Positions 23,326-37,555 of a stretch of 64,000 bases of DNA are shown here, in pieces. How positions within the stretch are numbered: position 1 is the stretch's first letter; every line of letters begins with the position of its first letter. The DNA is taken from positions 2,728,001-2,792,000 of the forward strand of contig NZ_CP076547.1 in NCBI RefSeq assembly GCF_018889995.1, written 5' to 3'. The notes beneath the pieces are model-generated. The model was not told where the DNA came from. It saw nothing but the letters and a program-made list of their open reading frames with translations, and did no database searches. Position numbers and translations under genes: made by a program. This DNA is from Subtercola sp. PAMC28395. Lineage in GTDB: Bacteria; Actinomycetota; Actinomycetes; Actinomycetales; Microbacteriaceae.

Positions 23326-26300
23326 ATGCCCAACAGGATGCCCGGCAGCACACTCCCAGATGACACCGCCCTGGCCCTGCCCGGGCTGCTCCTGGGCGGC
23401 GGCCGGGCACCGCAGCCTCGCACGCTGATGGATGTCCTGCGATCGACTGCCGCCGAGCATCCTCAGGCCTCTGCACTCGCAGACGCGGCCGGCACCCTCA
23501 GCTACCGCGAACTGCTCAGGGAGGTCAACGCGGCCGCTGCACGGCTCGCTACGGCGGGGGTGCGACACGGCGACAGGGTCGGGATCCGCATCCCCTCGGG
23601 CACCAGGGTGCTCTACATCTCGATTCTGGCGACCCTCGCGGTCGGCGCCAGCTACGTTCCCGTCGACGCCGACGACCCCGAGGAACGCGCCGAACTGGTC
23701 TTCGGCGAAGCGAAAGTGGTCGGGGTGATCGGCGCCTCTGGCACGATCGATCTCGCGAGCGCCGTTGCTCCGCGCGCCAGCCAGTCCTCGCCCCCGACCC
23801 TTGGCACTCCGACGGGCACGATGCCGGTCGTCGGTGGCCCGACCCCTGACGACGACGCCTGGATCATCTTCACCTCGGGTTCGACGGGCACGCCGAAGGG
23901 CGTCGCCGTGACCCACAGGTCGGCCGCTGCCTTCGTCGACGCCGAAGCGCGCCTCTTTCTCCAGGCCGAGCCCCTCGGGCCGGGCGACCGGGTGCTCGCC
24001 GGGCTGTCGGTGGCCTTCGACGCCTCCTGCGAAGAGATGTGGCTGGCCTGGCGCCATGGCGCCTGCCTGGTGCCGGCACCCCGCTCACTCGTGCGTTCGG
24101 GCGTCGACCTCGGGCCCTGGCTGATCGCCCACGGCATCACGATCGTCTCGACGGTTCCCACCCTGGCAGCCCTCTGGCCACTGGAGTCGCTCGAACTCGT
24201 CCGTCTGCTGATCTTCGGCGGAGAAGCCTGCCCTCCCGAACTCGTCGCACGACTGGCCGTCGACGGGCGGGAGGTCTGGAACACCTATGGGCCGACCGAA
24301 GCGACCGTGGTGGCGTGTGCTGCACTGCTCGACGGAACAAGCCCTGTGCGCATCGGACTGCCCCTCGACGGCTGGGACCTCGCGGTGGTCGACGGCTCCG
24401 GTACACCCGTCGGCGAAGGTGAGATCGGCGAGCTCGTCATCGGCGGAGTCGGGCTCGCCCGGTACCTCGACGAAGCCAAAGACCGCGAGAAGTACGCCCC
24501 CATGCCTACCCTCGGCTGGGATCGCGCCTACCGCAGCGGCGACAACGTGCTCTTCAGCGCCGAGGGATTGCTGTTCCAGGGCCGCGCCGACGACCAGGTC
24601 AAGCTGGGAGGCCGCCGCATCGAGCTCGGTGAAGTCGAAGCTGCCCTGGCAGCCCTGCCTGGAGTAGCGAGTGCAGCCGCAGTGGTGCAGCGAACACAGG
24701 CCGGAAACCAGATCCTCGTCGGGTACATCGCCCTGGCCGAGGCCGTATCGGGCTTCAGTACCCAGCACGCCTCTGAGCTGCTGCGCGAGACGCTGCCGGG
24801 TGCACTCGTGCCGTTGCTCGCCGTGGTCGAATCGCTCCCCACCCGCACCTCTGGCAAGGTCGACAAGGCCGCCCTGCCCTGGCCGCTGCCGACACCCTCT
24901 ACGCCGGTCAGCGACCGCACCCGCCGTGACGCCAGCCGCAGTGACGACACCCCCGGCGCCGGCGATTCGGATGCCCGGCCTCCGCTCTCTGCCACCGAAG
25001 CCTGGCTCGCCGTGCAGTGGACGGCCATTCTCGGAGCACCAGTGACGAGCACTGACGACGACTTCTTCGCATTCGGAGGTGGGAGCCTCTCGGCCGCCCA
25101 GCTGGTGTCGGGCATCCGGGTGCGCTTCCCTGAGACGACCGTCGCCGACATCTACGATCACCCGCGAATCGGCGCCCTTGCCACCGAACTCGATGCGCGG
25201 GCACCTGCCGCCGCACGCGAACGGCGCACGGTCCGCCCGACCCCGTTCGGCACCCAGGTGGCGCAGACGCTGCTGGGCATTCCGCTCTACGTGCTCGTGG
25301 GCCTGCGGTGGCTGGTCTATGTTCTGGCTGCCAACAATGTGCTCGCCCTCTTCGGCGACTTCGCCTGGGCGCCGACGGTGTCGTGGTGGTGGATTCTTGC
25401 GGGCTTCGTGCTGCTCATCACCCCGTTCGGCCGCATGGCGATCTCCGTCGTGTTCGCGCGGGCGTTGCTGGCTGGCGTGGAACCCGGGAACTACCCCAGG
25501 GGAGGCAGCGTGCACCTGCGTCTCTGGCTGGCTGAGCAGATCGCGAACCTCGTCGGAGCGACGAACCTCGCCGGCGCCCCGTGGATCATCACCTACGCCA
25601 GGGCACTTGGTGCAAAGATCGGGCCCGGGGTCGACCTGCACTCGCTGCCGCCGATCACGGGCATGCTGAAGATCGGGGCACGCGCCTCCGTCGAACCCGA
25701 GGTCGACCTGGCCGGGTACTGGGTCGACGGCGACATTCTGCGCCTCGGTTCGGTGCACATCGGCGCGGACTCTGCCATCGGCGCGCGAAGTACGCTGCTG
25801 CCGGGAACACACATCGGCCGCCGGGCCGAGGTTGCGCCGGGCTCCGCCGTCTCCGGGCGCGTGCAGGGAGGCCAGCTCTGGGCAGGCTCCCCCGCCGAAC
25901 GGGTCGGCAAGGCAAAACCGAACTGGCCCGACTTCCGCCCGCCCCGCAACACCCGCTGGCTCGTGCCCTTCGCCCTCGGCTCCATCGTGCTCTCGCTCCT
26001 GCCGGCATTCGCTGTGCTGGCGGGCTGTGTCGTTGTCGGTCTCTTCCTCGGCCTGGGGCACGCGCCGCTCACAATCGACCCAGGCACTGCTGTCGTGACC
26101 GAACCGGCCGCGATCCTCCTGCCCACCCTCGGCGACGCGGCGCTTCGCGCGCTGGCCGCCATCCCGCTGGCCACCCTCGCCGCCGGCATCGTCTATGCAG
26201 GTCTCACGGTCGTCTTCGCCCGACTCCTTGGCCTGGGTATCCACCCGGGGAGCTACCCCGTGCGCTCCCGGGTCGGCTGGCAGGTCTGGGCCACCGAGCG

Positions 26301-27420
26301 CCTGCTCGATGCTGCTCGAACCATCCTCTTCCCGTTCTACGCGAGCCTCTTCACTCCCGTGTGGCTTCGGATGCTCGGGGCGAAGGTGGGCAAGAACGTC
26401 GAAGCCTCCACGGTGCTGCTCCTGCCGGCGATGACCACGATCGGAGACCACGCGTTCCTCGCCGACGACACCATGGTGGCCTCGTACGAGCTCGGAGGCG
26501 GCTGGCTCCGCATCGACGAGGCCCGGGTCGGCAAGCGCGCCTTTCTCGGCAACAGCGGCATGACGGGCCCCGGGCGAACGGTGCCTCGCAACGGCCTGGT
26601 CGCCGTGCTCTCTGCGACTCCGCGCAAGGCAAAGAGTGGCTCCTCGTGGCTCGGCAACCCGCCGGTGCGGTTGCGGCGCCAGGTCGCGGAATTCGACGAG
26701 ACGCGCACCTTCCAGCCCTCAGCCTGGCGCCGGGTCGCGCGTGCACTGTGGGAGATCGGGCGCATAGTGCCGGTGATGATCAGCGTCGCCATCGGGCTCG
26801 GCGTCGTCGTGCTGCTGGAGTACCTTGTCGCGTCTGCCGGTCTCGGCTGGGCGATCGTGCTCTCGGGGGCGGTGATGCTGCTCGCCGGAGCGGTGGCCGC
26901 GCTGGTGACGACGGCCGCCAAGTGGGCACTGGTGGGCAGAATCGGGCGGGAAGAGCATCCCCTCTGGTCGTCGTTCGTCTGGCGCAACGAAGTGTCGGAT
27001 ACCTTTGTAGAGATGGTTGCTGCTCCGTGGTTCGCTGGCTCTGCCACTGGCACGCCCGCCCTGGCTGTGTGGCTGAGGTCCCTGGGCACGAAAATCGGGC
27101 GCGGAGCCTGGGTCGAGACCTACTGGCTGCCAGAGGCAGACCTCGTGAGCCTGGGCGCGGCCTCGACGGTCAACAGGGGCTGCGTGGTGCAGACCCATCT
27201 CTTTCACGACCGGGTCATGAGCCTCGACACCGTCGACCTCGAAGACGGTGCGACCCTGGGGCCGCACGGTGTCATCCTGCCGGCCGCCTCGATCGGAGCA
27301 GACGCGACCGTCGGGCCGGCCTCGCTCGTCATGCGCGGAGAACACGTGCCAGCCGGGTCGCGGTGGGCCGGGAATCCGATCGCTCCCTGGGCAGACGACC
27401 TTCCCGGGACGACGGCCTGA
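23326..27420 (+). CDS. Pls/PosA-type single-module peptide synthetase (poly-epsilon-lysine synthetase-like)
   Basis: 1364 residues. An adenylation domain (residues 35-515) has FTSGSTGTPKGVAVTH, FDASCEEMW, NTYGPTEATV, YRSGDN and TSGKVDK. A carrier domain follows, with the phosphopantetheine Ser587 (FGGGSLSA). The last 750 residues contain several pairs of membrane helices between soluble left-handed-helix-like repeats. There is no condensation or thioesterase domain. This architecture defines the Pls/PosA family, whose Streptomyces founder polymerises lysine through its side chain. By alignment to PheA the ten pocket residues read D A E S I G T V V K (Asp232 to Lys511), close to the bacitracin lysine code. 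Start uncertain: a second ATG lies 12 bases on. Confidence 0.88.
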   Translation: MPNRMPGSTLPDDTALALPGLLLGGGRAPQPRTLMDVLRSTAAEHPQASALADAAGTLSYRELLREVNAAAARLATAGVRHGDRVGIRIPSGTRVLYISILATLAVGASYVPVDADDPEERAELVFGEAKVVGVIGASGTIDLASAVAPRASQSSPPTLGTPTGTMPVVGGPTPDDDAWIIFTSGSTGTPKGVAVTHRSAAAFVDAEARLFLQAEPLGPGDRVLAGLSVAFDASCEEMWLAWRHGACLVPAPRSLVRSGVDLGPWLIAHGITIVSTVPTLAALWPLESLELVRLLIFGGEACPPELVARLAVDGREVWNTYGPTEATVVACAALLDGTSPVRIGLPLDGWDLAVVDGSGTPVGEGEIGELVIGGVGLARYLDEAKDREKYAPMPTLGWDRAYRSGDNVLFSAEGLLFQGRADDQVKLGGRRIELGEVEAALAALPGVASAAAVVQRTQAGNQILVGYIALAEAVSGFSTQHASELLRETLPGALVPLLAVVESLPTRTSGKVDKAALPWPLPTPSTPVSDRTRRDASRSDDTPGAGDSDARPPLSATEAWLAVQWTAILGAPVTSTDDDFFAFGGGSLSAAQLVSGIRVRFPETTVADIYDHPRIGALATELDARAPAAARERRTVRPTPFGTQVAQTLLGIPLYVLVGLRWLVYVLAANNVLALFGDFAWAPTVSWWWILAGFVLLITPFGRMAISVVFARALLAGVEPGNYPRGGSVHLRLWLAEQIANLVGATNLAGAPWIITYARALGAKIGPGVDLHSLPPITGMLKIGARASVEPEVDLAGYWVDGDILRLGSVHIGADSAIGARSTLLPGTHIGRRAEVAPGSAVSGRVQGGQLWAGSPAERVGKAKPNWPDFRPPRNTRWLVPFALGSIVLSLLPAFAVLAGCVVVGLFLGLGHAPLTIDPGTAVVTEPAAILLPTLGDAALRALAAIPLATLAAGIVYAGLTVVFARLLGLGIHPGSYPVRSRVGWQVWATERLLDAARTILFPFYASLFTPVWLRMLGAKVGKNVEASTVLLLPAMTTIGDHAFLADDTMVASYELGGGWLRIDEARVGKRAFLGNSGMTGPGRTVPRNGLVAVLSATPRKAKSGSSWLGNPPVRLRRQVAEFDETRTFQPSAWRRVARALWEIGRIVPVMISVAIGLGVVVLLEYLVASAGLGWAIVLSGAVMLLAGAVAALVTTAAKWALVGRIGREEHPLWSSFVWRNEVSDTFVEMVAAPWFAGSATGTPALAVWLRSLGTKIGRGAWVETYWLPEADLVSLGAASTVNRGCVVQTHLFHDRVMSLDTVDLEDGATLGPHGVILPAASIGADATVGPASLVMRGEHVPAGSRWAGNPIAPWADDLPGTTA

Positions 27421-28781
27421 TGCCGCGCTCCACACGGCCCACGTCGACAGCCCTGGCCGCTGAGGGCGCCCGTTCACTCGGAGACCCGTATCTGCCCACC
27501 AGTGGCAACGGCGGCTACACCGTGCTGCACTACGACCTCGACTGCGACTATCGGGTTAGCTCCAACAGGCTCAGCGCCACGGCCACGATCACGGCGCGTG
27601 CAACCCAGAAATTGAGCAGGTTCAGCCTCGACTTCGCGGGCCTCGTCGCCAACAAGGTGACCGTCAACGGAACCCGGGCGACCAACGTGATCCAGACGGC
27701 CCGAAAACTCGTGATCACCCCGGCCCTCCCCCTCGACAATGGCTCCGAGTTCACTGTCGTCATCAAGTACGCAGGGCTTCCGAAACCGGTGCGCAGCCAA
27801 TGGGGTGAGGTCGGCTGGGAGGAGCTCTCTGACGGGGTGATCGTGGCCGGGCAGCCGAGTGGGGCACCTTCGTGGTTCCCCTGCAACGATCATCCATCGA
27901 ACAAGGCGACGTACTCCATCGCCTTCTCGGCCGAGACGGCCTACCGGGTGCTCTGCAACGGCGAACTGGTGCTTCGAACGCAGCGGGCCAGCCGCACCCG
28001 GTGGGAATTCGAGTCGCGCGAGCCCGTCGCAACGTATCTGGCGACCGTGCAGATCGGCCTCTACGAGACCATGGGGGTCTCCCAGCGCGGAGTGCTGCAG
28101 TATGTTCTGCTGCCCGAAGACCTGCGTTCGAACGCCCTCGCAGACTTCGAGGACCAGCCACGGATGATGGCACTCTTCGAGCGCTCATTCGGGCCGTACC
28201 CGTTCTCCGACTACACCGTCGTCGTCACCGACGATGAGCTGGAGATTCCCCTCGAAGCCCAGGGCCTGGCGATCTTCGGCCGTAACCACATCGATGGTGT
28301 CGGAGGCTCTGAGCGACTGATCGCCCACGAACTCTCGCACCAGTGGTTCGGCAACAGCCTCACCATCTCGCACTGGAAGGACATCTGGCTGCACGAGGGA
28401 TTCGCCTGTTACGCCGAGTGGTTGTGGGCCGAGGAGTCGGGCTCGCTGACGGCCGACGCTTCAGCAACCCAGGCCTGGAACAAGATCAATCGCCTGCCCA
28501 AAGACCTGGTGATCGGCGACCCGGGCTCCGCCCGGATGTTCGACGACAGGGTCTACAAGCGTGGTGCACTGACGCTCCATGCCCTCCGCACCACGCTGGG
28601 CGACGATGTCTTCTTCACGATTCTGCGCGAGTGGGCAGCGACGCATCGCCATGGCAACGTCAGCACCCCGGAATTCATCGCTCTGGTCGAAACACACTCT
28701 CCAGTGCCCGTACGCTCCCTGTTCGCGGCCTGGCTCGACCAGTCGGGCTTGCCGAAGCTGCCGAAGCGCACAGCGCGCTAG
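27420..28781 (+). CDS. M1-family zinc aminopeptidase
   Basis: 453 residues. The gluzincin motif HELSHQWFGN (His303, Glu304, His307) and the third ligand Glu326 (HEGFACYAEW) are intact. The upstream substrate-binding segment reads LEAQGL instead of the common GAMEN. The protein ends soon after the catalytic domain, so it is a short M1 enzyme without the large C-terminal domain. No signal peptide is seen. Its ATG overlaps the stop of the Pls-like gene (TGATG), which implies coupled translation. In context it could trim or degrade the polymer or protect the host; that is inference from position only. Confidence 0.9.
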   Translation: MPRSTRPTSTALAAEGARSLGDPYLPTSGNGGYTVLHYDLDCDYRVSSNRLSATATITARATQKLSRFSLDFAGLVANKVTVNGTRATNVIQTARKLVITPALPLDNGSEFTVVIKYAGLPKPVRSQWGEVGWEELSDGVIVAGQPSGAPSWFPCNDHPSNKATYSIAFSAETAYRVLCNGELVLRTQRASRTRWEFESREPVATYLATVQIGLYETMGVSQRGVLQYVLLPEDLRSNALADFEDQPRMMALFERSFGPYPFSDYTVVVTDDELEIPLEAQGLAIFGRNHIDGVGGSERLIAHELSHQWFGNSLTISHWKDIWLHEGFACYAEWLWAEESGSLTADASATQAWNKINRLPKDLVIGDPGSARMFDDRVYKRGALTLHALRTTLGDDVFFTILREWAATHRHGNVSTPEFIALVETHSPVPVRSLFAAWLDQSGLPKLPKRTAR

Positions 28782-30744: not shown

Positions 30745-32100
30745 ATGACCGACATCATTGGCAGTTCCGTGTTCACCGTTTCCCAGGAGCGCAAGATCGT
30801 CACGGCGATCCCCGGCCCGAAGTCCGATGCCCTGCATGCCCGGCGTCTGGCCGTCGTGCCCACCGGTGTCTCGTCGGTGCTTCCCGTCTACATCGCCAGG
30901 GCCAACGGCGCGATCCTGGTCGACGTCGATGGCAACCAGTTCATCGACATGGGGGCCGGCATCGGCGTCACGACCGTCGGTCACACCGAGGCGGCTGTGG
31001 TCGAGGCAGCTTCTGCGCAGCTGCACGACGTCACCCACACCCTCTTCACGGTCACGCCCTACGAAGGGTACGTGCGGGTGGCCGAGCTCCTCGCCGAACA
31101 CACCCCCGGCGACTTCGCCAAGAAGACGATGCTCGCGAACTCCGGCGCAGAGGCCGTCGAGAACGCCGTGAAGATCGCCCGCAAGCACACCCGCCGGGTC
31201 GGCGTCGCCGTTCTCGAACACGCCTACCACGGCCGCACCAACCTCACCATGGCGATGAACTTCAAGGCGGCCCCCTACTCCACCGGATTCGGCCCCTTCG
31301 CCGGCGACGTCTATCGCGCACCGAACTCGTACCCCTACCACGACGGCCTCTCGGGCGCCGAGGCAGCGACCCGCACGATCAACTACCTCGAGAAGACCGT
31401 GGGGTCGTACGACCTCGCCTGCCTCGTCGTCGAGCCGATCCAGGGCGAGGGCGGCTTCGTCGTGCCAGCGGAGGGCTTCCTGCCTGCCCTCCAGGCCTGG
31501 TGCACTGAGAAGGGCATCGTCTTCATCGCCGATGAGATCCAGAGCGGCATGGCACGAACGGGTGCCTACTTCGCCAGCGAGCACTTCGGCCTCGTGCCCG
31601 ACATGATCACCTCGGCCAAGGGAATCGCAGGGGGTCTCCCCCTCGCAGCCGTCACGGGGCGAGCAGACATCATGGATTCCGCCCTGCCGGGCGGGCTCGG
31701 CGGCACCTTTGGCGGCAACCCCGTTGCCACGGCGGCGGCGATCGCCGTCTTTGCAGAGATCGAGCGACTCGGCCTGCTGGCTGAGGCCACGCGGGTCGAG
31801 CAGACGCTCTCAGCGGGCCTTCTCGAACTGCAGAAGAAGTACGACGTCATCGGCGAGGTGCGCGGAGTGGGTGCGATGATCGCCATCGAACTCGTGCAGC
31901 CCGGAACAGGCCAGACCACCAAAGAACCCAACCCTGCAGCAGTCACGGCCCTCGCGGCCTACGCAGCCCAGCACGGGGTCATCATCCTGACGGCGGGCAC
32001 CTACGGAAACGTGCTGCGGTTCCTTCCGAGCCTCACCATCAGCGATGCACTGCTCGAAGACGCGCTGGGCGTTCTCGATGCTGGCTTCGCCACGCTGTGA
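30745..32100 (+). CDS. gabT: 4-aminobutyrate aminotransferase
   Basis: A PLP class III aminotransferase of 451 residues. The PLP lysine is Lys292 (SAKGIAGGLPLAAV). The cofactor-binding SGAEAVENAVKIAR and the aspartate in IADEIQSGMARTG are present. GabT moves the amino group of GABA to 2-oxoglutarate to give succinate semialdehyde. The N-terminal AIPGPKSDALHARR and the C-terminal region fit GabT better than ornithine aminotransferase. It is coupled by a GTGA overlap to the asparaginase gene and lies near polyamine import genes. No gabD is in the window. Confidence 0.9.
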   Translation: MTDIIGSSVFTVSQERKIVTAIPGPKSDALHARRLAVVPTGVSSVLPVYIARANGAILVDVDGNQFIDMGAGIGVTTVGHTEAAVVEAASAQLHDVTHTLFTVTPYEGYVRVAELLAEHTPGDFAKKTMLANSGAEAVENAVKIARKHTRRVGVAVLEHAYHGRTNLTMAMNFKAAPYSTGFGPFAGDVYRAPNSYPYHDGLSGAEAATRTINYLEKTVGSYDLACLVVEPIQGEGGFVVPAEGFLPALQAWCTEKGIVFIADEIQSGMARTGAYFASEHFGLVPDMITSAKGIAGGLPLAAVTGRADIMDSALPGGLGGTFGGNPVATAAAIAVFAEIERLGLLAEATRVEQTLSAGLLELQKKYDVIGEVRGVGAMIAIELVQPGTGQTTKEPNPAAVTALAAYAAQHGVIILTAGTYGNVLRFLPSLTISDALLEDALGVLDAGFATL

Positions 32101-33098
32101 CGGCAAGAGAAACATTCGCGACGTCAGAGGCCGTCGAACTCGCGTTCATCGATCGCAGTGGGTTCATCGAATCCCGCCACGGCGGTTCGGCCGTGGTCGT
32201 CGGCCCCGGCGGGCAGGTGATCCGAAGCCTCGGCAACCCCGAAGCGCCCATCATTCCCCGGTCGTGCCTCAAGCCCTTCCAGGCCGTTGCGGTCGCCGAG
32301 GCGCTTGCCAGCGCGGGCGTCGAGCTGACCCCCCTTCAGACCGTGCTGTCGACGGCGAGCCACGCCGGAACCCCTGAGCACGTTGCGGTCGTGCGGAGCA
32401 TCCTCGACCGGGCCGGCCTCACACCGGATGCCCTGCAGTGCCCCCACGACTGGCCCGGTGACTCCGGCTCGCGTGACGGCCTCGTACGCGCGGGCTCCAG
32501 CCGTGCATCTGTCTACATGAACTGCTCGGGCAAACATGCAGCGATGCTGCTCACCTGCGTAGCGAACGGCTGGCCGACAGAAACCTATCTCGAACTGGGC
32601 CATCCCCTGCAGCAACGGATCCGCAGCACGATCGAAAACCTCACCGGAGAGAGTGTTGCAGCCACCGCGGTCGACGGTTGCGGCGCGCCGGTGCATGCGA
32701 TCAGCCTGGTGGGCCTGGCGCGTGGCATCGGTCGCATCACGTCTTCGACCGACGGTTCAGCGCAGTACCTGACCGATTCGGTTCTCGCCAACGGCTGGGC
32801 GATCGACGGCCCGGGGCGCGCAAACACCGTCTGCATCGACGAACTCGGCGTCTTCTCGAAGCTCGGTGCAGAGGGCGTCATGGTCATGGCGGCACCTGAC
32901 GGAACCACGGTGGCCCTCAAGATGCTCGACGGCAGCCTGCGCGCGGCCTCGCTGGTGGGCCTGACGCTCCTCGTCTCAGCCGGAGCACTGGCCCAGGCTG
33001 ACGTCGACCGGGTGCTGCCTGCTCTCGACCTGACTGTGTACGGCGGCACCGAGCCGGTCGGCGCCATACAGGTTTCTTCAGCGGTCATCGCCGCCTAG
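32097..33098 (+). CDS. L-asparaginase II family protein
   Basis: 333 residues matching the thermolabile (Rhizobium-type) asparaginase II family, not the classic AnsA/AnsB fold. Visible family segments are SCLKPFQA, STASHAGTPEHV, NCSGKHAAML and VDGCGAPV. It would hydrolyse asparagine to aspartate and ammonia in the cytosol. The GTG start overlaps the gabT stop by four bases, so it is in the same operon. Together the two genes would feed amino-acid nitrogen into aspartate and succinate. Confidence 0.88.
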   Translation: MTARETFATSEAVELAFIDRSGFIESRHGGSAVVVGPGGQVIRSLGNPEAPIIPRSCLKPFQAVAVAEALASAGVELTPLQTVLSTASHAGTPEHVAVVRSILDRAGLTPDALQCPHDWPGDSGSRDGLVRAGSSRASVYMNCSGKHAAMLLTCVANGWPTETYLELGHPLQQRIRSTIENLTGESVAATAVDGCGAPVHAISLVGLARGIGRITSSTDGSAQYLTDSVLANGWAIDGPGRANTVCIDELGVFSKLGAEGVMVMAAPDGTTVALKMLDGSLRAASLVGLTLLVSAGALAQADVDRVLPALDLTVYGGTEPVGAIQVSSAVIAA

Positions 33099-33200
33099 GC
33101 AATCGGTTCCGATGCGCCGGGCTTTGCCCAGCTCCTCAACCAGCGACGTGAATCCGACGGTTGAGTGGCTGCGCAGCGGAGCATCGAAGCCAGACTCTTC

Positions 33201-34091
33201 CTACTGGATCCGCGCGAGCCTCTTTGCGCGGGCCGCTCGTGACACCTGGGCGACGACCACGATCACGATCGCCAGGAGGAAGACCGCGGAGGCGATGACG
33301 TTCGCCTCCGCCGGAATTCCTCGCGCCGCAGCGATGTAGATGAACTTCGGGAAGGTGTCGACCGCGCCGGAGTTGAAGTTCGTGATGATGAAGTCGTCGA
33401 AGCTCAGCGCGAACGAGAGCAGCGCGGCCGCAGCGATTCCCGGCACGAGCAACGGAAAGGTGATCCGCCAGAACACCGCTGAAGCAGAACCGTAGAGGTC
33501 GCGCCCCGCTTCTTCGAGCGACGGGTCGAGGCTTGCCACGCGAGCCTTCACCGTCACCACCACGAAACTGATGCAGAACATCGTGTGCGCGATGATGATG
33601 GTCCCGAGGCCCTTGTTCACCCCCAACGACAGGAACTGTGCCGCGAGCCCTGCACCCAGCACCACTTCGGGCGTCGCCATCGGCAGGAAGAGCAGCAGCG
33701 AGATCGCCGAGCGCGCCTTGAACCGGTAGCGCACGAGCGCGATCGCGATTGCCGTACCGAGTGCGGTCGCGAGCACCGTGGCGACCACACCGACGAGGAT
33801 GCTGTTGCCGAAGGCCTCGCAGACCCCCTGTGCATCGCAGACGTGCAGCCACTTGTCGAAGGTGAAACCCTGCCAGGCGATGTTGAGTTTGCCCGAATCG
33901 TTGAACGAGAACACGAAGGTGTAGGCGATAGGAATGAGCAGGAAGATCAGCGCGAGAATCGTGTAGATCGGAAGCCCGAGACCCTTGAACCTGATCTTCA
34001 CCCGGCGGCCGCCCGCGCGGGGAGGCGCGGCCATCGGAGCTTCGAGATCAGCGGCGATGGCCCCTGGCCCGGCTGTGGAGAGTGCACTCAT
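33201..34091 (-). CDS. potC: Polyamine-type ABC transporter permease (PotC-like)
   Basis: 296 residues with six membrane helices and the EAA loop typical of importer permeases (LEEAGRDLYGSASAVFWRI). A Pro/Arg-rich cytoplasmic N-terminus of about 30 residues precedes the first helix. It is the last gene of a four-gene operon (binding protein, ATPase, two permeases) and overlaps the upstream permease by four bases. Putrescine/spermidine is the family-based substrate guess. Confidence 0.88.
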   Translation of the reverse strand: MSALSTAGPGAIAADLEAPMAAPPRAGGRRVKIRFKGLGLPIYTILALIFLLIPIAYTFVFSFNDSGKLNIAWQGFTFDKWLHVCDAQGVCEAFGNSILVGVVATVLATALGTAIAIALVRYRFKARSAISLLLFLPMATPEVVLGAGLAAQFLSLGVNKGLGTIIIAHTMFCISFVVVTVKARVASLDPSLEEAGRDLYGSASAVFWRITFPLLVPGIAAAALLSFALSFDDFIITNFNSGAVDTFPKFIYIAAARGIPAEANVIASAVFLLAIVIVVVAQVSRAARAKRLARIQ

Positions 34092-35002
34092 ATCAGGTCC
34101 TCCGTTCCTGCTCGTCGAACATAGATGCCCACGATGATCAGAATCACGGCCATCAGGATGATCGAGAGTGCGGCCGCTATCGGATAGTTCTGCAGCACAA
34201 GGAAGTTCGCCTCGATCGCATTACCGACCATCGACGTCTGCGAACTTCCCAGAAAGTCCCCGCTGGCGTTGATGTAGTCACCGGCCGCAGGGATGAAGGT
34301 CAACAGTGTGCCCGACACGATGCCGGGCATCGAGAGCGGAATGGTCACCTTGCGGAAGGTCGTCCACGGTGAGGCATACAGGTCGCTCCCCGCCTCGATG
34401 TACCGAACGTCGAGACGCTCGAGCGTCGCATACAGCGGCAGCGTCATGAACGGAATGAAGTTGTACGTCAGGCCGAAGATCACCGCGAACGGCGTGCCGG
34501 TGATATGCCCGTCGGCCGGAAAGATCGAGAGCGCCTTGAGCGCGACCACGATGGGCCCCTCGTCACTCATGATCTGCTTCCACGCAAGCGTGCGCAGCAG
34601 AAAGCTGATGAAGAACGGTGCGATCACCAGGGTCAGCAGCAGGCTCTGGAAGAGTGGCCAGCGCCTGGCCTTCACCCCGATGAAATACGCCATCGGGTAG
34701 CTGATGACCAGCGCGAGCACGGTGGCGATCACCGCGTACCCGAAAGCCCGCAGAATCAGCGGCAGGTACTGCCCGACCGCATCGGTGTAGTTCTGCCATT
34801 GGAAGCCGGCGCTGTACTGCCCGATGTCGCCGTCGATCACCGGCTGCTGAAAAGAGGTGAAGATCAGCGAGATCAGCGGGGTGATGAAGAACAGCATCAG
34901 GTACAGGATGCCCGGCAGCAGAAGAATCAGGGCGATCCAGCTGCGCTTGCGAACAGCGGGTTCAGCCGCCGCCGTCGAACTCGCGAACGCGGTGAAGGCC
35001 AT
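34088..35002 (-). CDS. potB: Polyamine-type ABC transporter permease (PotB-like)
   Basis: About 304 residues. The first helix (ALILLLPGILYLMLFFITPL) and the EAA loop (IEAGSDLYASPWTTFRKV) mark a PotB-type permease. I start at ATG 35002, one base after the ATPase stop codon, where the family N-terminus aligns; a GTG-led reading further up overlaps the ATPase gene by 44 bases. It pairs with PotC to form the membrane channel. Confidence 0.88.
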   Translation of the reverse strand: MAFTAFASSTAAAEPAVRKRSWIALILLLPGILYLMLFFITPLISLIFTSFQQPVIDGDIGQYSAGFQWQNYTDAVGQYLPLILRAFGYAVIATVLALVISYPMAYFIGVKARRWPLFQSLLLTLVIAPFFISFLLRTLAWKQIMSDEGPIVVALKALSIFPADGHITGTPFAVIFGLTYNFIPFMTLPLYATLERLDVRYIEAGSDLYASPWTTFRKVTIPLSMPGIVSGTLLTFIPAAGDYINASGDFLGSSQTSMVGNAIEANFLVLQNYPIAAALSIILMAVILIIVGIYVRRAGTEDLI

Positions 35003-35003
35003 C

Positions 35004-36215
35004 TCAGGCCTGCTCGAGCTCGGATTCGGCGGCGCGTGCATCCACACGGGCGCGCGTGGCTATCGTCGCCGTGTCGGCCGCCTCGTCTGAAACTGCGGAG
35101 TCGGGCAGCGGCGCATCTTCCAGCCCGAAGCTGTGCTCGATGCTCCAGCTGACCCAGACCTCGGCTCCCACGTGCACGACGGGCCCGAAGATCATGTTCT
35201 GTGCGAACACGACGATGTCGCCGACACCGGGAACCGCGACGATGTACTGCGTACTCACACCGCTGAACGACACATCGATCACCCGGCCGGGGCCTACGAC
35301 GTTGCGTGATCCGTCGATTACCGGAGCCTCGGTGAGAAGCAGCACCTTCTCTGGCCGCACCCCCACGGTGATCACTCCGCTGTTGCGCTGGGCACGGGCA
35401 CGAGGGATGACCAGGGTTTTGCCTGCGATCGACATTGTCAGGGCATCCGGAGTCGTTGAAACGACGGGCCCCGTGAACAGGTTCGACTGGCCGAGGAAGT
35501 TCGCGACGAACGCGGTTCTGGGCAGTTCGTACAGTTCTTCCGGCGCGCCCATCTGCTCGATCGCGCCCTTGTTCATGACCGCGATGGTGTCGGCCATGGT
35601 CATGGCCTCCTCCTGGTCGTGGGTGACGTGCAGGAAGGTCAGGCCGACCTCGGTCTGGATGTTTTTCAGTTCGAGTTGCATCTGGCGACGGAGCTTCAGG
35701 TCGAGAGCTCCGAGGGGTTCGTCGAGCAGCAGGAGCGCTGGGCGGTTGACGATTGCGCGTGCCAGAGCGACACGCTGCTGCTGCCCTCCGGAGAGCTGGC
35801 CGGGCCGGCGCGACGCGAGGTGGTCGAGTTCCACCAGCCGAAGAGCCTCGTGCGCCTTGTCGAGAGGCTTGGCGATGCTGCGTCGACGGAGACCGAAGGC
35901 GACGTTCTCGAGAACAGTCATGTGGGGGAAGAGTGCGTAGGACTGGAACACGGTGTTCACCGGTCGCTGGAACGACTTCGTCGCTGTGACGTCCTTGCCT
36001 CCGATGAGGATGCGTCCTGCCGTCGGCTCCTCGAGGCCGGCGACAAGGCGCAGCGTGGTGGTCTTACCGCAGCCCGACGGCCCAAGGAGGGCGAAGAACG
36101 AGCCCGCGGGAATGAAGAGGTCGAGTGACTCGATGGCGGTGAAGCCGGGGAAGTGCTTGTTGATTCCGACGAGTTCGAGGTCGGCGCCCTTCTCGGCGAA
36201 TGTCCCGGCGGCCAT
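35004..36215 (-). CDS. potA: Polyamine-type ABC transporter ATP-binding protein (PotA-like)
   Basis: 403 residues. Walker A GPSGCGKTT (Lys51), signature LSGGQQQR near residue 145, Walker B LLLLDEPLGALD and the switch His in HVTHDQEEAM. The C-terminal third is the TOBE regulatory domain of spermidine/putrescine and iron importers. A non-conserved acidic/Ala tail of about 40 residues follows. Its ATG overlaps the binding-protein stop (TGATG). It powers import through PotB/PotC. Confidence 0.92.
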   Translation of the reverse strand: MAAGTFAEKGADLELVGINKHFPGFTAIESLDLFIPAGSFFALLGPSGCGKTTTLRLVAGLEEPTAGRILIGGKDVTATKSFQRPVNTVFQSYALFPHMTVLENVAFGLRRRSIAKPLDKAHEALRLVELDHLASRRPGQLSGGQQQRVALARAIVNRPALLLLDEPLGALDLKLRRQMQLELKNIQTEVGLTFLHVTHDQEEAMTMADTIAVMNKGAIEQMGAPEELYELPRTAFVANFLGQSNLFTGPVVSTTPDALTMSIAGKTLVIPRARAQRNSGVITVGVRPEKVLLLTEAPVIDGSRNVVGPGRVIDVSFSGVSTQYIVAVPGVGDIVVFAQNMIFGPVVHVGAEVWVSWSIEHSFGLEDAPLPDSAVSDEAADTATIATRARVDARAAESELEQA

Positions 36216-37447
36216 CAACTGCCCAGCAGCACTTTTTGGAACGAAGCGCCGAAGTCGCTCTCCTCCTGGGCGCTGAGCGTGCGGAACACGTGGACCTGCT
36301 TGAGGTAGTCGGCGTCGGGGAAGATCAGCGGGTTGGAGGCCAAGGTGGGGTCGATGGCATCCATCGCCTCCTTGGCTCCGTTGACCGGCGTCACGTAGTT
36401 CACCCACGCTGCGAGTTCTGCGGCAACGGCCGGCTCGTAGTAGTAGTCCATGATGGCTTCGGCGTTGGCCTTGTGACGAGAGCCCATCGGCACGACGAAG
36501 GTGTCGTTCCAGAGCGTGCCACCGGAGTCGGGGATGGCGAACTGCCACTTGTCACCGGCCGTTGCGTTCAGCGAGGTGATGTCACCCGACCAGCAGATCG
36601 CCGCGAAGGTGTCTTCGTTCTGCAGGTCGTTGAGGTACTGGTTGCCCTTGATGTTGCGGATCTGGCCGTCGCTGACCTCCTTGGTGAAGACATCCATCGC
36701 CTTGTTGAACTGGTCGGCGGACCAGTTCCCGGTGATGTCGGTTCCCTGGGAGAGCATGATGAGACCGATCGTGTCGCGCATCTCGGAGAGAACGCCCACG
36801 CGGCCCTTGAGCTCCGTGGCCCAGAGGTCGTCGATACTCTTGATGCCGTTCGGCACCTTCTCCTTGTTCCAGCAGATTCCGGCGTAGCCGCCCTGCCAGG
36901 GCAGGGACTTCTGGCGGCCCTTGTCGAAGTCGGGGTTGGCGAAGGATTCGCTCAGGTTCGAGATGTTCGGGATCTTGGCGTGGTCGAGGTCCTGGATGTA
37001 ACCGAGGCGTACGAGCCTCGCGACCATCCAGTCGGTGAGACACACCGTGTCGGTGCCGATGTCCTGCCCGAGTGCGAGCTGGTCCTTCACCTTGGCGTAG
37101 TAGGTGTTGTTGTCATCGACGGCGACGTTGTACGTGACGTTGATGCCGGACTTCTGCTGGAAACCCACCAGGGTCGGGTGGTTGCCTTCGGCGTCTTCGT
37201 CCATGTAGGCAGGCCAGTTGTCCCAGATCAGGGTCTTCTCTGTGGCAGAGACATCGGTGGCCGGCGTGAGCGCCGCCTTGGTGGCTGTGGTCGGTGCGCA
37301 GGCAGCGAGGCCCAGGGCTCCGGCCCCCAACCCGACGGCCCCGAGGAAGCCGCGGCGGCTCATCGAGAGTCGCTTGGCGTTCTGCATTGCCTGTGATTGC
37401 TTGATGGCTTCGATGATCATCGGGTCGCGCGGTGGCGTCAGTGGCAT
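36215..37447 (-). CDS. potD: Polyamine-type ABC transporter substrate-binding lipoprotein (PotD-like)
   Basis: About 410 residues. The N-terminus has a twin-arginine signal (SRRGFLGAVG) that ends in a lipobox (LAAC), so it is probably exported folded by Tat and lipid-anchored. The mature part has PotD-like segments: LIWDNWPAYMDEDA, CLTDWMVARLVRLGYIQ and PWQGGYAGICWNKE. Aromatic and acidic residues that would grip a diamine are plentiful, but the exact ligand cannot be read off. It is the first gene of the pot operon. ATG 37447 is chosen because GGAG lies about ten bases upstream. Confidence 0.9.
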   Translation of the reverse strand: MPLTPPRDPMIIEAIKQSQAMQNAKRLSMSRRGFLGAVGLGAGALGLAACAPTTATKAALTPATDVSATEKTLIWDNWPAYMDEDAEGNHPTLVGFQQKSGINVTYNVAVDDNNTYYAKVKDQLALGQDIGTDTVCLTDWMVARLVRLGYIQDLDHAKIPNISNLSESFANPDFDKGRQKSLPWQGGYAGICWNKEKVPNGIKSIDDLWATELKGRVGVLSEMRDTIGLIMLSQGTDITGNWSADQFNKAMDVFTKEVSDGQIRNIKGNQYLNDLQNEDTFAAICWSGDITSLNATAGDKWQFAIPDSGGTLWNDTFVVPMGSRHKANAEAIMDYYYEPAVAAELAAWVNYVTPVNGAKEAMDAIDPTLASNPLIFPDADYLKQVHVFRTLSAQEESDFGASFQKVLLGS

Positions 37448-37555
37448 GAGTGGTGCACTCCAAGGTCTCGCGAAAAAGGTGTTTTGATACTGACACACCG
37501 ACTCAGCGAATCACAGCAAAAGCCACGAAAAGAACGATCTTGAAACACAATCTTT

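Follow-up and report, generated by a model that had tools for sequence, protein, structure and literature searches.

A probable epsilon-poly-L-lysine synthetase gene overlapping a PldII-like peptidase gene in Subtercola sp. PAMC28395

Introduction

The epsilon-poly-L-lysine synthetase Pls of Streptomyces albulus and its partner peptidase PldII are a point of reference for a group of membrane-bound non-ribosomal peptide synthetases (NRPS) known as the Pls/PosA family. pldII is translationally coupled to the adjacent pls, encodes the major degrading enzyme and influences polymer length (PMC9223678), and PldII is reported to lie outside the membrane (PMC9223678, PMC9205021). Homologues of Pls whose pockets are identical or highly similar to those of confirmed Pls enzymes have been described in Corynebacterium, Brevibacterium, Arthrobacter, Microbacterium and other coryneforms; in C. 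variabile pls forms an operon with a peptidase gene, and the C. variabile Pls, which shares 51% identity with its Streptomyces counterpart, made epsilon-poly-lysine of 26 to 35 residues in Streptomyces coelicolor (PMC8117764). Here we describe a pls-like gene and its partner in a 64,000-nucleotide stretch of the genome of Subtercola sp. PAMC28395 (Microbacteriaceae; contig NZ_CP076547.1, positions 2,728,001 to 2,792,000), referred to below as the window, and conclude that the gene is in all likelihood an epsilon-poly-L-lysine synthetase (Pls) of this Subtercola species.

Substrate choice in this family has been traced to the adenylation pocket. Asp at pocket position 1 and Glu at position 3 hold both amines of the substrate, and position 2 follows the chain length: Phe for diaminopropionate and diaminobutyrate, Met for ornithine, Ala for lysine, while the poly-beta-lysine enzyme has the pocket DGESISVVNK (PMC10522769).

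Results

The gene is an open reading frame with an ATG start and no internal stops, and its product is divided as follows.

23326 to 27420, plus strand: pls-like gene, a single-module membrane-bound NRPS of 1364 residues, Pls/PosA family (TIGR02353; 7WEW match)
23407 to 24894, plus strand: adenylation domain, residues 28-523 (67% identity and 10/10 pocket residues versus 7WEW)
25003 to 25185, plus strand: peptidyl carrier (thiolation) domain, residues 560-620 (PF00550, 1.6e-8)
25213 to 27417, plus strand: membrane polymerisation module, residues 630-1364 (three helix pairs alternating with beta-helix-like regions C1-C3)

The NCBIfam model TIGR02353, 'Pls/PosA family non-ribosomal peptide synthetase', matches residues 645-1352 with 741 bits (cut-off 423). 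Pfam assigns a single AMP-binding domain to residues 39-379 and its C-terminal part to 436-511, along with the single carrier domain and a hexapeptide-repeat match (810-843); none of its five matches is to a condensation or thioesterase family. An initial annotation, made from the letters alone, had read one adenylation domain, one carrier domain and a large membrane module with neither a condensation nor a thioesterase domain, and this order is confirmed. Ser587, within GGSL, is the expected phosphopantetheine site of the carrier domain, and is present in 205/205 rows of one alignment and in 123/124 of another, the sole exception being an incomplete sequence (L258).

Among solved structures the closest is 7WEW, from an epsilon-poly-L-lysine synthetase; this adenylation domain scores 629.7 bits over residues 28-523, far beyond chance, and is 67% identical to the window domain over 475 aligned residues. 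The pocket is formed by D232, A233, E236, S275, I296, G298, T320, V328, V329 and K511 (DAESIGTVVK), exactly the residues that had been picked by eye, and all ten are identical in 7WEW. Asp, Ala and Glu thus occupy positions 1, 2 and 3. The spacing agrees with that of PosA residues D217, M218, E221, H260, N280, T304, V312 and S313 (PMC10522769), at offsets of 15-16, and the PosA construct 8G95 itself scores 202.5 bits over residues 30-407, lower in part because its chain is shorter. In an alignment of 206 rows (the window protein, 7WEW, 119 proteins from a search for relatives and 85 locus proteins), 202 of the 204 rows other than the window and 7WEW have the 7WEW pocket, a conservation that is overstated since the rows were picked by closeness. 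The lysine code of bacitracin synthetase, the comparator in the initial annotation, was dropped in favour of the solved Pls, which is directly related to the window enzyme and agrees with it in all ten residues.

We built a quick maximum-likelihood tree from 48 adenylation domains, PosA itself not being among them. A branch with SH-aLRT 100 divides 44 lysine-code rows, which include the window and 7WEW, from 4 distant rows with Phe at position 2; this branch is very long, and so is the terminal branch leading to L259. Of the lysine-code rows, those from Microbacteriaceae, the window included, group together as a supported set of 24 (SH-aLRT 96), which fits mostly vertical inheritance. A non-basic pocket and a position outside the Pls-like enzymes were both looked for; neither was found, the pocket being that of 7WEW and the window grouping with it.

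Could the enzyme serve another diamino acid, such as ornithine, diaminobutyrate, diaminopropionate or beta-lysine? The membrane-module family spans all of these enzymes (PMC10522769), and the substrate is not fixed by the module by itself. The pocket makes such a substrate very improbable, as the window has Ala233 at position 2 where PosA has Met and the PDAP and PDAB synthetases have Phe, and its DAESIGTVVK departs from the DGESISVVNK of the epsilon-poly-beta-lysine enzyme. Moreover, L252, L256, L257 and L259, relatives whose pockets have Phe at position 2, share only 28-34% identity with the window protein and stand without a peptidase gene. Specificity of the window adenylation domain for L-lysine is therefore well supported, by the pocket, by the tree and by a second gene.

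27420 to 28781, plus strand: M1 metallopeptidase gene, 453 residues, PldII-like (PF01433 1.8e-27, PF17900; scan from 27432)

The ATG of this peptidase gene overlaps the stop of pls (TGATG), the arrangement of the published pls-pldII pair, and its zinc motif HELSH is intact. In Streptomyces sp. NBC_01454 a gene annotated 'epsilon-poly-L-lysine synthase Pls' is likewise followed by an overlapping M1 gene, and the two peptidases are 42.5% identical. We call the window peptidase PldII-like on this alignment with the peptidase beside a Streptomyces pls.

We fetched 120 places, 117 from a survey of the family Microbacteriaceae (L143-L258, L262) and three from order-level relatives (L259-L261), and scored an M1 relative on the same strand starting between -600 and +2300 bases from the pls-type stop. 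The 117 matching family genomes include the window's genome itself and two partial matches (G249, G279) that fall outside the fetched set. The pocket reads DAES[IV]GTVVK in 113/120 places (110 with I, 3 with V); elsewhere L259 has DFEYNGTVTK, two pieces (L260, L261) are incomplete, and in L258 most of the adenylation domain is missing. A downstream M1 peptidase is found in 114/120 places, that is, in every one of the 113 lysine-code places and in L258, and in 0/6 of the others. A second set of 135 rows, which overlaps the first, counts the window twice and is not independent of it, has a same-strand peptidase in 132, five of them at 577-2118 bases (L045, L048, L051, L063, L094); in L026, L139 and L141 no peptidase was found nearby. 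The peptidase thus tracks the lysine code closely, not absolutely, and this linkage lends independent support to lysine as substrate.

Three places in one genus (L252, L256 and L257, in genomes G166, G104 and G218) hold second Pls/PosA copies with the pocket DFECLSVVTK. They share 28-29% identity with the window protein and have no M1 peptidase beside them; each genome has a lysine-code copy elsewhere. Because of the Phe at position 2, the pocket of these copies suggests a shorter diamino acid. L139 (a plasmid of Streptomyces viridifaciens) and L141 (plasmid pROB01 of Rhodococcus opacus) are plasmid-borne lysine-code pls genes with no peptidase relative in the fetched stretch.

Hydropathy past residue 500 gives nine overlapping windows that merge into five blocks, the last of which fits two helices. 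Some six membrane helices had been anticipated, and the structure model has six long helices paired three times (about 641-673/687-714, 876-907/935-969 and 1147-1171/1173-1203), so that, as modelled, the window protein has the three tandem acyltransferase-like domains (NRPS_term_dom) surrounded by six helices that characterize Pls. A phmmer search with the module returned only weak matches to hexapeptide proteins (best E 3.4e-4), and Foldseek with VIA-align returned hexapeptide acyltransferases with low Z scores of at most 6.7. The best 50 structural matches listed include no solved Pls/PosA membrane module, an absence that is weak evidence. This resemblance to small-molecule acyltransferases, at low scores, together with a chain length that is unreadable from sequence, leaves some room for an enzyme that makes a short lysine oligomer, or adds lysine to a component of the membrane or the wall, instead of releasing a free 25-35-mer. 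We consider this unlikely, given the 26-35-mers obtained with C. variabile Pls in Streptomyces (PMC8117764) and a PldII-like partner that suits a free polymer.

27190 to 27210, plus strand: C3 motif Q1289-T-H1291-L-F-H-D1295 (conserved; proposed active-site motif)

Within the third beta-helix-like region, Q1289, H1291 and D1295 are present in 205/205 rows of one alignment and in 121/124 of another, where the exceptions (L260, L261, L262) are incomplete pieces gapped at the motif. Enzymes with differing pocket codes share this Q-x-H-x3-D, and the three residues may be catalytic.

The Subtercola genome (one contig, 3.2 Mb) has one full match to the family domain, two others far below the cut-off, and two matches to phosphopantetheinyl-transferase families. 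The initial annotation had expected a synthetase of this kind to stand out in its family of bacteria. The Pls-type synthetase, very likely L-lysine-activating, is supported, and its being notable in the family is not, as the family domain exceeds the cut-off in 117/299 sampled Microbacteriaceae genomes (own included), in 41/85 genera, and in 10/11 other genomes of the genus, the exception (G005) being 88% complete. With 182/299 family genomes lacking a match, the gene is common, not universal. The closest species-named protein among the matches listed is from Subtercola endophyticus (81% identical), and a protein of the same genus (L005) is 95% identical over its available part. The protein search scored 7995 candidates and gave at least 7217 relatives at E <= 0.001. 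The best 80 loci of a named-genome scan lie in Microbacteriaceae, Nocardiaceae, Mycobacteriaceae, Micrococcaceae and others, and more exist beyond these; a control over 14 well-known genomes gave one match over the cut-off, in Corynebacterium glutamicum.

Two small Microbacteriaceae genomes, G212 (about 1.75 Mb; L247) and G299 (about 1.6 Mb; L254), have kept the lysine-code gene with its peptidase; small Microbacteriaceae genomes without a family-domain match also exist, such as G016, G020 and G023. In G109 the family match comes in two pieces (L262, G109:C1:2188642-2190701), which may reflect either a broken gene or an assembly error.

Further downstream in the window, positions 30745-37498 hold genes for a gamma-aminobutyrate (GABA) transaminase, an asparaginase-II-family protein and a polyamine-type ATP-binding cassette (ABC) transporter, which resemble a polyamine-use cluster. 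An EmrB-like major facilitator superfamily (MFS) transporter gene and an OsmC-like gene also lie downstream of pls. No tie of these neighbours to pls was seen, and neighbour linkage in relatives was not compared.

Discussion

Because the pocket is identical to that of a solved Pls, the adenylation domain groups with Pls in the tree, and a pldII-like gene overlaps the stop, L-lysine is very likely the amino acid that the window enzyme activates, and epsilon-poly-lysine its product where the gene is expressed. This analysis observed directly the order of the domains, the pocket, the position in the tree, the gene pair and the conservation; expression of this copy and its polymer product are what we infer from the sequence.

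Several points weigh against this conclusion. Pocket codes are sometimes degenerate (PMC10522769). By eye, the window peptidase starts without an obvious signal sequence, whereas the peptidase of the Streptomyces relative L138 starts like a secreted protein, and this counts a little against full equivalence with PldII. The pair is not obligatory either, since L139 and L141 have the lysine code with no peptidase nearby. Furthermore, C. variabile natively gave no detectable polymer, its Pls protein went undetected in culture, and C. glutamicum expressing C. variabile pls gave no detected polymer (PMC8117764), so the window gene may be silent too. Is it then a silent or non-functional relic, as the missing native polymer of C. 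variabile might suggest? We think this extremely improbable: the frame is open, the pocket, carrier serine, C3 motif and peptidase zinc motif are all intact, and the family domain has been retained in ten of eleven further genomes of the genus. These alternatives partly overlap with the conclusion that the gene is a Pls, and their likelihoods need not total one.

A route for the window Pls can be sketched, with ATP activation, the roles of pocket residues, iterative polymerisation and PldII action taken from published homologues. The adenylation domain would activate L-lysine with ATP, D232 holding the alpha-amine and E236 the side-chain amine, and the small A233 would make room for the six-carbon chain. 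Lysine would then be loaded onto the phosphopantetheine arm at Ser587, and the three beta-helix domains, held in the membrane by six helices, would join the thioester to the epsilon-amine of free lysine or of the growing chain. Bond formation would proceed without a condensation domain, and the polymer would exit the cell. The overlapping PldII-like M1 peptidase would trim or degrade it, probably for self-protection or length control.

A bolder proposal, which we hold to be doubtful, is that in Pls-type enzymes only C3 of the three pseudo-symmetric beta-helix domains works, via Gln1289-x-His1291-x3-Asp1295, and that the Microbacteriaceae pls-pldII pair, passed on mostly vertically, has a permanent function in the envelope or physiology of the cell instead of serving occasional antibiosis. 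The permanent function is proposed because even genomes as small as about 1.6-1.75 Mb have kept the pair. The invariant C3 motif is a clear target for probing how a bond is formed without a condensation domain.

The window gene leaves the understanding of the Pls/PosA family unchanged; it points to a plausible Subtercola producer of a food-grade antimicrobial polymer, within a broad family distribution. The tight linkage between lysine code and peptidase and the invariant C3 Gln-x-His-x3-Asp motif are small additions to knowledge. A literature search joining poly-L-lysine synthetase with Microbacteriaceae by name found no paper; the presence of pls in Microbacteriaceae and Subtercola is already anticipated in print, at family and genus level (PMC8117764, PMC9287328).

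How, then, does the locus compare with known systems? The sequences compared with the window for S. albulus Pls, PosA and PldII were 7WEW, 8G95 and the L138 peptidase. With S. albulus Pls and PldII the window shares the A-T-C1-C2-C3 order, the ten-residue pocket and six membrane helices (published for Pls, modelled in the window), and as in the Streptomyces relative L138 the M1 peptidase gene overlaps the pls stop. It differs in sequence: its adenylation domain is 67% identical to that of S. albulus, whereas those of Streptomyces L138 and L142 are 90-93% identical to 7WEW, and the whole proteins of these two are 54-55% identical to the window protein. The coryneform Pls homologues have the same architecture, and C. 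variabile also the peptidase operon; Subtercola is not among the genera named in the available portion of that report, whose two strain sets are cheese and skin isolates (PMC8117764). In the same genus, an epsilon-polylysine (NAPAA) cluster has been called by antiSMASH in S. endophyticus, another species and a computed call only (PMC9287328). PosA of Acinetobacter baumannii (PMC10522769; 8G95-8G98) belongs to the same family and has a similar modelled membrane module, but it carries Met, not Ala, at pocket position 2 and gives a weaker adenylation-domain match.

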